DNA from: Sphingomonadales bacterium | GTDB lineage: Bacteria > Pseudomonadota > Alphaproteobacteria > SMXS01 | NCBI GenBank assembly: GCA_022844405.1 | Contig: JALHLV010000019.1 | Location: 1-64,000, forward strand | Direction: 5' to 3' | DNA length: 64,000 bases | Part shown: in pieces, positions 50,025-52,497 of the stretch | Position numbering within the stretch: position 1 is the stretch's first letter | Layout of the letters: each line of letters opens with the position of its first letter | Notes under the pieces: model-generated | The model's input: only the letters and a program-made list of their open reading frames with translations | Told to the model about the DNA's origin: nothing | Database searches by the model: none | Program-made: the position numbers and the translations under genes

Positions 50025-50774
50025 TTACCGATTTGGCGCGAGCAGGGCGAAATGGCCGCCTTGGGGATCGACGGCGTTGACGATCCAGGCGTCGCCGGGC
50101 ACCTGGTGCGGCCCCATGACGACCCTGCCGCCGCCCTCGCCGATCCGCTCGACCGCGGCGTCGATTGCATCCACGCAGAAGTAGAACTGCCAGCAGGGCA
50201 CCGGGAATTCCGCCGGCTTGTTCATGGTCGCGCCGTTGGCGGTGACGCCGTCATACGCGAACAGCCGGTACTGCCCCATGGGGCCCATGTCCATGCTGTC
50301 GACCTGTTTCCAGCCGAACTGGCCGGCATAGAACGCCATCGCCGCCTCGCCGTCACCGGCATAGAGCTCGTGCCAGCCGACGGTACCGGGCGTACCCATG
50401 GGGACCGGCGGCGCGTCCGGACCCTGCGGCTGCAGGAACAGGAACACCGCGCCGGTCGGATCGGCGACGACAGAGAAACGGCCAACGCCATCGATGTCGG
50501 CAGGCTCCTTGTGCACCGTGCCGCCTGCGGCCTTCACCCTGGCCGTGTCGGCGTCTACGCTCTTGGAATGGATGTAGCCGAGCCAGTGCGGCGGCATGGA
50601 CTTGTCGGGGCAGGCCATGATGCCGCCGATGCCACGGTCGCCCGCATGGAGCACCGTATAGGCGCCGGTATCGTCGTAGGGTTGCGGCCGCCAGCCCACC
50701 ACGTCGGCGTAGAAATCGATCGCCGCGGCGGTGTCGGTGGTCATCAACTCGTACCAGAAGAATTGCTGGGTCAT
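50025..50774 (-). CDS. VOC-superfamily protein with two glyoxalase-like domains
   Basis: A 249-residue protein made of two tandem VOC modules: residues about 5-120 (FFWYELMTTDTAAAIDFYADVVGWRP) and about 125-245 (VGWHELYAGDGEAAMAFYAGQFGWKQ). Such proteins bind a metal or substrate in a beta-alpha-beta-beta-beta cavity, and include dioxygenases, resistance proteins and isomerases. The start ATG 50774 gives MTQQFFWYELMT; 16 upstream codons lack coding character. It is 13 bases from the next VOC gene and likely shares its operon, which is divergent from the HxlR regulator. Confidence 0.87.
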   Translation of the reverse strand: MTQQFFWYELMTTDTAAAIDFYADVVGWRPQPYDDTGAYTVLHAGDRGIGGIMACPDKSMPPHWLGYIHSKSVDADTARVKAAGGTVHKEPADIDGVGRFSVVADPTGAVFLFLQPQGPDAPPVPMGTPGTVGWHELYAGDGEAAMAFYAGQFGWKQVDSMDMGPMGQYRLFAYDGVTANGATMNKPAEFPVPCWQFYFCVDAIDAAVERIGEGGGRVVMGPHQVPGDAWIVNAVDPQGGHFALLAPNR

Positions 50775-50787
50775 CGTCTGTCTCCTG

Positions 50788-51270
50788 TCAGGCGCCGGCG
50801 GCGGCGCGCTCGATTTCGCCAATGTCGATCTTGATCTGCTTCAGCATCGCCTCGGTGGCGCGGCGCGCCCTCCCTCCATCCGCGTCGACGGTCAGCTCGA
50901 CGAGACGCCGGGGTATGATCTGCCACGACAGCCCCCAGCGGTCGGTCAGCCAGCCGCACTGCACCGGCGCGCCGCCGTCCTTGATCAGGGCATCCCACAA
51001 CCGGTCGGTCTCGGCCTGGTCGTCGGTGATGACCACGATCGAGGCGGCCGCCGTGTGCGTGAAGTGCGGGCCGCCATTGAGGGCCTGGTATTGCTGACCG
51101 TCCAGGGTGAACTCGACCAGCATGGTCTCGCCCCTCTTGCCGCCGCCGGGCGAGTCGGCGTTGTAAGGCGTTACCCGGTCGATCCGCGAGTTGGGGATCA
51201 GCGAGACGTAGAACCGCGCGGCATCCTCGCCGTCCTTGTCGAACCACAGGCAGGTGGAAATCTTCGACAT
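50788..51270 (-). CDS. VOC-superfamily protein (PhnB/3-demethylubiquinone methyltransferase-like)
   Basis: This 160-residue single-domain protein has the PhnB-like pattern: MSKISTCLWFDKDGEDAARFYVSLIPNSRI, TMLVEFTLDGQQYQALNGGPHFTHTAAASIVV and the family's CGWLTDRWGLSWQIIPRRL end. Despite database names of the 3-demethylubiquinone-methyltransferase type, such proteins lack a methyltransferase fold; their ligand is unknown. Its ATG overlaps the DUF1428 stop (ATGA), so the genes are co-translated. Confidence 0.88.
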   Translation of the reverse strand: MSKISTCLWFDKDGEDAARFYVSLIPNSRIDRVTPYNADSPGGGKRGETMLVEFTLDGQQYQALNGGPHFTHTAAASIVVITDDQAETDRLWDALIKDGGAPVQCGWLTDRWGLSWQIIPRRLVELTVDADGGRARRATEAMLKQIKIDIGEIERAAAGA

Positions 51271-51629
51271 CACTTGCTCCCCGCTTCGACGATAACCTCG
51301 AAACCGCCGAAAATCATCCGCTGCGGATTGAACGGCATGTCGTCGGGCATCTTCATGCGCGGATCGGCCATCACCTTTCTGTTGCCTTCGTCGCGGGCCT
51401 CCTTCGAGGGCCAGGTGATCCACGAGAACACGACGTTCTCGCCCTTCTCGGTCTTCACCGCGCCGTAGAAGTCGGTGACCTTGCCTTCCGGCACGTCCTC
51501 GCCCCAGCATTCGACCACATGGGTCGCGCCGGCTTCGCGGAACAGCACGGCGGCTTCCTCCGCCATCTTGCGGTAGGCGTCCTTCTGGCCTTGCGGCACG
51601 GGAATGACAAATCCGTCAACGTAGCTCAT
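51270..51629 (-). CDS. DUF1428-family protein
   Basis: The product (119 residues) starts MSYVDGFVIPVPQGQKDAYRK and contains VVECWGEDVPEGKVTDFYGAVK and VMADPRMKMPDDMPFNPQRMIFGGFEVIVEAG, the DUF1428 pattern, a ferredoxin-like dimeric alpha/beta barrel. The function of the family is not established. The ATG at 51629 is preceded by GAGAG and gives the standard N-terminus; the longer frame to 51746 is not supported. It is the first gene of the three-gene unit facing the HxlR regulator. Confidence 0.88.
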   Translation of the reverse strand: MSYVDGFVIPVPQGQKDAYRKMAEEAAVLFREAGATHVVECWGEDVPEGKVTDFYGAVKTEKGENVVFSWITWPSKEARDEGNRKVMADPRMKMPDDMPFNPQRMIFGGFEVIVEAGSK

Positions 51630-51737
51630 CGGTTCTCTCCTCGGGGTGGAGCGGCCCATGGCCGCGGGTCCTCTGGCCTCGTTGGATATGGGGCGCCTGT
51701 TCGGCGGCGTCCCGGCGACTCGCTCCTCGGTTGCGAC

Positions 51738-51766
51738 TTGACACACTTACCCATTTTAGTTATAAA
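51738..51766 (+). promoter_or_regulatory. Consensus promoter of the HxlR-type regulator, leaderless arrangement
   Basis: TTGACA (51738-51743) and TATAAA (51761-51766) are 17 bases apart, nearly the ideal sigma-70 promoter. The predicted start of about 51773-51774 falls 1-2 bases before the ATG at 51775. No Shine-Dalgarno exists in between, so the message is probably leaderless. Confidence 0.65.
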
Positions 51767-51774
51767 AAACAACT

Positions 51775-52497
<723 letters not shown>

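Follow-up and report, generated by a model that had tools for sequence, protein, structure and literature searches.

A conserved tandem repeat, probably an autorepressor operator, spanning the start codon of an HxlR-type regulator gene with a predicted leaderless mRNA

Analysis of a 64,000-nucleotide stretch of a Sphingomonadales genome (the window; contig JALHLV010000019.1), together with orthologous loci, leads us to propose with considerable confidence that an HxlR-type regulator is an autorepressor that also represses a divergent operon, acting through an operator at the start of its own predicted leaderless gene, with a likely methylation input. The operator comprises two copies of an 18-base element (Table 1), a direct repeat identical at 17 of 18 positions with a spacing of exactly 21 bp, and it extends across the -10 element, the start codon, and codons 2 to 8 as originally predicted. 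Each copy is also a dyad of the form GTT-N9-AAC. The conserved promoter spacing and the exact 21-bp spacing are best read as those of an operator for two dimers bound on one face of the DNA.

Table 1. Features at and around the start of the HxlR-type gene (coordinates within the window)
Feature	Position	Strand	Basis
Glyoxalase-family gene, third on the strand (start chosen by eye)	50025..50774	-	Profile match
3-Demethylubiquinone methyltransferase-like gene, next after DUF1428	50788..51270	-	PF06983
Divergent gene, DUF1428	51270..51629	-	Profile match
CGACTCG, CcrM-type GANTC site (GACTC at 51717-51721); YGAKTCG on the minus strand	51716..51722	.	Motif and position counts
hxlR promoter -35, TTGACA	51738..51743	+	TTG at its column (-21) in 104/134 loci
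Predicted divergent -10, TAAGTG, 17-base spacer	51744..51749	-	CA or TA at first two bases in 112/134 loci; role predicted
Operator copy 1, AGTTATAAAAAACAACTA; dyad at 51759-51773; overlaps hxlR -10 and predicted divergent -35	51758..51775	.	Repeat/dyad search, conserved columns
hxlR promoter -10, TATAAA, 17-base spacer	51761..51766	+	TA at first two bases in 130/134 loci
Predicted divergent -35, TTGTTT, inside copy 1	51767..51772	-	TTG in 132/134 loci; role predicted
HxlR-type regulator gene, 240 aa, SCP2-like C-terminal domain	51775..52497	+	Profile, fold, and ORF evidence
Start codon ATG, adjoining copy 1; predicted leader of 0-4 nt (predicted 5' end)	51775..51777	+	ATG in 104 or GTG in 15 of 134 loci
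Operator copy 2, AGTTAGAAAAAACAACTA; dyad at 51780-51794; inside codons 2-8	51779..51796	.	Repeat/dyad search, TTA codon bias

Conservation of the tandem arrangement

Orthologous loci were gathered by protein searches of the named genomes (11 loci), of relatives, of the class, and of a genome family centered on G021, which we infer to be Sphingomonadaceae and in which 133 of 298 genomes gave a match at an E value of up to 1e-30. The named relatives include records of Alsobacter, Sphingobium, Sphingomonas, and Erythrobacter. The class sample yielded such a match in 7 of 385 genomes, so that the regulator is no general feature of this class. The 179 loci obtained gave 176 with a tblastn match, and removal of 5 duplicate records (the same contigs) and 20 weak paralogues left 151. 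The two best operator matches in each locus were then sought with their spacing left free between 12 and about 185, and in 134 of the 151 loci the spacing was exactly 21 bp. Recurrence of the element at homologues, which the original prediction had named as a check, is thus strongly borne out. No two of these 134 regions are identical over 140 bp, and among 71 representatives of less than 65% identity the spacing of 21 is kept in 59, the start is in place in 51, and the third codon is TTA in 43 of 44. Columns 0 to 38 of the alignment reach up to 2 bits, versus 0.01 to 0.12 in columns -70 to -55. The triplet aligned with the ATG of the window is a start codon in 119 of the 134 loci and another triplet in 15, two of which (L013 and L188) appear by eye to be misregistered by one unit, with an ATG still following the first copy. 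By the measure of the search, 17 of the 151 loci lack the spacing of 21, and some of these (L012, L143, L172, and L173) appear by eye to have weak second copies.

The dyad pattern TAGTT-N9-AACTA, with two mismatches allowed, is found twice in the window against an expectation of 1.34 and is therefore not rare on its own; it is the tandem arrangement and its conservation that go beyond chance. A chance repeat was accordingly rejected as an explanation, since the arrangement is common to 134 of 151 orthologues. The two operator copies are the only exact occurrences of the 15-base form GTTANNAAAANCAAC in the entire genome. A search of 10 genomes with up to one mismatch returned 23 matches, of which 13 lie at the hxlR locus and 10 elsewhere, versus 16 for a reversed-pattern control (two of the genomes, G440 and G669, had their own locus missed). 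A wider regulon was rejected on these counts, namely, 10 nonlocus matches versus 16 in the control and only two exact copies in the window's own genome.

The 20 weak HxlR paralogues have operator scores of at most 9 of 12, and L023 shows a poor repeat, matching at 13 of 18 bases, with a spacing of 21. The paralogues L030, L037, and L039 possess tandem dyads of their own (CTTG..CAAG and AGTTCC..GGAACT) with spacings of 33, 31, and 23, and, judging from these, tandem dyads may be common across the HxlR family. Several individual loci are peculiar. L077 has a third partial 21-bp unit with ATGAA after the two copies, resembling an in-frame duplication of seven codons; in L094, the start codon of the operator is out of frame with the HTH, implying a frameshift or a moved start; and L009 (CALQFM020000008.1), titled Candidatus Kuenenia, has a locus the same as that of G003:C8, from the genus of the window, so that its label looks wrong.

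The regulator and its predicted leaderless mRNA

The product of the gene contains a PF01638 HxlR domain (E value of 3e-18; 65.9 bits versus a cutoff of 20.8), and its winged-helix fold is recovered by profile matches and by Foldseek matches to YodB, HypR, and HxlR. Its C-terminal half (52130-52480) resembles SCP2-like domains (the alkylsulfatase C-terminal domain and UbiJ), with the Pfam match to PF14864 below the cutoff. SCP2-like domains bind hydrophobic ligands in known cases, and their fusion to an HxlR HTH in the modeled protein provides a possible ligand pocket. Of the 11 proteins aligned, all but L015 have Cys21 (10 of 11), and this residue is probably equivalent to the conserved N-terminal cysteines of the Bacillus proteins.

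In the window, an in-frame TAA at 51763-51765 and the absence of any other in-frame ATG, GTG, or TTG ahead of the HTH leave no possible start other than 51775; across the loci, the start at the operator is the sole in-frame possibility in just 59 of 118. The claim that a TTGACA-N17-TATAAA promoter precedes this start with no ribosome site holds for both of its sequence features: the window has no Shine-Dalgarno sequence upstream of 51775, and 112 of 119 loci likewise lack an SD-like 4-mer, which occurs in the other 7. With no fitting ribosome site, the hxlR mRNA is predicted to be leaderless, a reading that best fits the conserved promoter spacing and the missing Shine-Dalgarno sequence taken together. 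Such mRNAs are plausible in this group, as Zymomonas has 119 leaderless cases among 2,675 TSS-gene pairs (PMC7566282). RNA structure at the gene start was rejected as an explanation, as the start region gave no signal (z of -0.62).

It is conceivable, though we consider it unlikely, that the hxlR mRNA is instead leadered, issues from a promoter further upstream, and is translated without a Shine-Dalgarno sequence, the fit of the -35 and -10 elements being fortuitous. A strict sigma-70 scan indeed returns no promoter at the hxlR start, and about half of the Zymomonas leaderless units also have an upstream promoter (PMC7566282). That scan requires T as the sixth base of a -10 element, and TATAAA ends in A. 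The spacing of the two elements is conserved across the loci, with the frequencies of their leading bases (Table 1) and the 17-base spacer arguing against a fortuitous fit. Moreover, in 107 of the 134 loci, the divergent start, as mechanically picked, is 40 to 85 bp away from copy 1, leaving little room for a distant promoter.

Selection on the DNA of codons 2 to 8

The codons of the second copy indicate that it is maintained as DNA. Among the 118 in-frame loci, codon 3 encodes leucine in 103 and is TTA in 102 of these, although TTA makes up 0.75% of the leucine codons in the rest of the genes. Comparable departures from usage elsewhere in the same genes are seen at codon 4, where glutamine is CAA in 57 of 58 (18.7% elsewhere), at codon 5, where lysine is AAA in 83 of 99 (25%), and at codon 7, where threonine is ACT in 61 of 113 (4.7%). 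These biases are not accounted for by a general start-of-gene effect, since in codons 2 to 8 of 120 divergent genes TTA makes up none of 35 leucines. The likely start, assigned by eye, lies downstream of copy 2 in loci L010, L063 to L066 (one genus), L074, and L142, all of which keep both copies; thus, the start has moved past copy 2 in at least four lineages with the operators remaining, which indicates that the element is kept even when it is untranslated. The moved starts of L064 and L065 sit behind an AGGGAG-like ribosome site, and in L100 the start has moved by one codon (by eye). These patterns indicate that selection acts on the DNA, and the N-terminal peptide MKLEKTTN would then be mainly a by-product of the operator.

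The converse explanation, in which the bases are conserved because the protein or its translation needs MKLEKTTN and there is no operator, could draw on the wide retention of the peptide (lysine at codon 2 in 101, leucine at codon 3 in 103, lysine at codon 5 in 99, and threonine at codon 7 in 113 of the 118 loci) and on the fact that A-rich starts may favor leaderless initiation. We regard it as barely tenable and rejected the peptide as the cause: copy 1 is untranslated and equally conserved, the codon bias at codon 3 is absent from divergent genes, the loci with a moved start retain copy 2 untranslated, and residues 1 to 20 of the regulator are predicted to be disordered (pLDDT under 50). 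The locus offers a clean natural case in which operator DNA appears to dictate protein sequence, with codon choice revealing DNA-level selection across many genera, and an operator in the coding region makes the prediction testable by synonymous mutations.

Overlap with a predicted divergent promoter

A divergent promoter is also predicted, and its -35 falls within copy 1, a point that the original prediction did not raise. Column conservation and base counts fit two interleaved promoters, each with a 17-base spacer. As the TTG inside copy 1 is operator sequence as well, its conservation alone is no proof of the divergent promoter. Across the loci, the divergent proteins form seven groups (with 73, 31, 11, 6, 5, 2, and 2 members) plus 4 singletons; with one or two members of each scanned, the groups of at least two correspond, in order, to glyoxalase, DUF1428, GST, DUF899, 3-demethylubiquinone methyltransferase-like, AHSA1, and again glyoxalase proteins. 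The operator persists across these different divergent genes and hence belongs to the regulator.

Judging from the position of the operator and from what is known of the family, the regulator most likely represses its own gene and, jointly with it, controls the divergent detoxification operon. Two dimers would probably bind the two GTT-N9-AAC dyads, whose 21-bp spacing amounts to two helical turns and places them on one face of the DNA, with copy 1 lying over the hxlR -10 and the predicted divergent -35 and copy 2 over the initial transcribed region. The bound regulator would block both promoters until an inducer released it; this may be a small compound, hydrophobic or electrophilic, that is recognized through the SCP2-like domain or Cys21. 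The hxlR mRNA would begin at the ATG or within a few bases of it, which would allow the operator to sit in coding sequence; 21 bp are also seven codons, so that the unit keeps the frame, and this coincidence of two turns with seven codons may be why the unit can live there. The suggestion that the regulator might control a leaderless mRNA is better recast as a block on transcription initiation, since the data give no sign of RNA binding.

That the element is an operator whose main binder is some other regulator, or that HxlR activates the divergent operon, seems to us improbable. The identity of the binder is deduced from the sequence context, and HxlR of B. subtilis is reportedly a positive regulator, as the title of Yurimoto 2005 has it. 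Against this, the element follows hxlR whichever gene is divergent (glyoxalase, DUF1428, GST, DUF899, or others), its occurrence elsewhere in the genomes searched is not above chance, and it overlaps -10 and -35 elements, positions at which a bound protein would obstruct polymerase.

A GANTC site upstream of the hxlR promoter

A second feature not covered by the original prediction is a GANTC site of the CcrM/GcrA type upstream of the hxlR -35. Of the 134 loci, 125 have a GANTC in the 120 bp upstream of copy 1, versus 13 to 19 of 132 for each of five control windows placed farther upstream; in the same 120-bp stretches, ten other 5-letter patterns of similar makeup occur in 10 to 82 of 134. 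The flanking controls are mostly coding DNA, so a general enrichment in promoters could contribute to this difference, against which the fixed position of the site argues: 67 sites start exactly at -31. Between about -50 and -18 there are 126 GANTC sites, 117 of which read CGAMTCR (complement, YGAKTCG), versus 35 of 505 background GANTC sites. The extended motif is present in that stretch in 115 of 134 loci (approximately 0.4 expected from 35 in 377,524 bp of flanks) and in 51 of 59 of the 65% identity set. For the 95 CGAMTCR sites with a TTG at -21, the site lies exactly 10 bp upstream of the TTG in 56 and 9 to 11 bp upstream in 73; the distance is 21 in five loci (the window, its close relatives L005, L006, and L009, and L106), and the remaining distances scatter from 7 to 22, pointing to helical phasing in most loci and not in all. 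A genome-wide class of promoters with this GANTC and -35 spacing was not supported: the pattern, a narrow test that fits only 52 of the 134 loci, gave 5 matches in 10 genomes (2 at the hxlR locus) versus 2 in the control.

Through this upstream site, the locus is probably linked to GcrA and to methylation by CcrM. The genome encodes GcrA and an N6_N4_Mtase protein with a RAMA domain that is presumably CcrM, and YGAKTCG has been proposed as the motif of methylated Caulobacter promoters that GcrA activates (PMC7987155). A serious alternative, which we place appreciably short of an even chance, is that CGAMTCR is the site of some activator of the hxlR promoter or a part of the divergent leader and that its methylation is incidental. 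The GANTC lies outside the interval between the hxlR -10 and -35, PMC7987155 describes Brevundimonas GcrA targets without an extended-motif preference, and 13 of the 134 loci (the window's relative L021 and 12 others) have no GANTC between -50 and -18. Caulobacter promoters with GANTC outside the -10/-35 interval make up a cluster whose activity is lowest at 40 to 60 min (PMC4287350). The methylation reading is favored by the variable base, which is A or C in 118 of the 126 sites, by the fit of 117 of the 126 to the published directional motif, and by the two genes noted above.

If methylation does provide an input, the gene start would be a multipurpose element, serving at once as tandem operator, leaderless -10, divergent -35, start codon, and codons 2 to 8, with a CcrM/GcrA site that couples electrophile or aldehyde defense to chromosome replication across sphingomonads and relatives. 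We consider this broader proposal evenly balanced. The GANTC site makes a stress regulator a candidate for a conserved role downstream of the methylation clock of alphaproteobacteria.

Comparison with known systems

In the literature covered, from which subscription papers are mostly absent, we found no HxlR protein described with a direct- or inverted-repeat operator, a leaderless mRNA, or an autoregulation site at its start codon; nor, in the same coverage, did we find a link between HxlR and CcrM beyond work on a Streptomyces m4C methylase. The HxlR/DUF24 proteins of Bacillus subtilis (HxlR, YodB, CatR, and HypR) share with the regulator described here the HTH family, the fold, adjacent detoxification genes, and a conserved N-terminal cysteine, probably matched here by Cys21. 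B. subtilis HxlR has tandem direct-repeat sites. The present regulator differs in its added SCP2-like C-terminal domain and in having an operator that spans the start codon of a gene with a predicted leaderless mRNA, and it is read as a repressor, whereas B. subtilis HxlR is an activator by report. Lambda cI expressed from PRM and tetR of Tn1721 are leaderless autoregulated repressors whose mRNAs start at the AUG, with operators nearby; unlike in these, one operator copy here lies wholly within codons 2 to 8 and shapes codon choice across many genera. With the GcrA/CcrM-controlled promoters, the locus has in common CGAMTCR (YGAKTCG on the opposite strand) next to a promoter and the presence of GcrA and CcrM-like genes in the genome. 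It differs from them in that the site, a putative target of methylation, is placed upstream of the -35 (most often by 10 bp and by 21 bp in the window) rather than between the -10 and -35, and its neighbor is a stress-type regulator and not a cell cycle gene.
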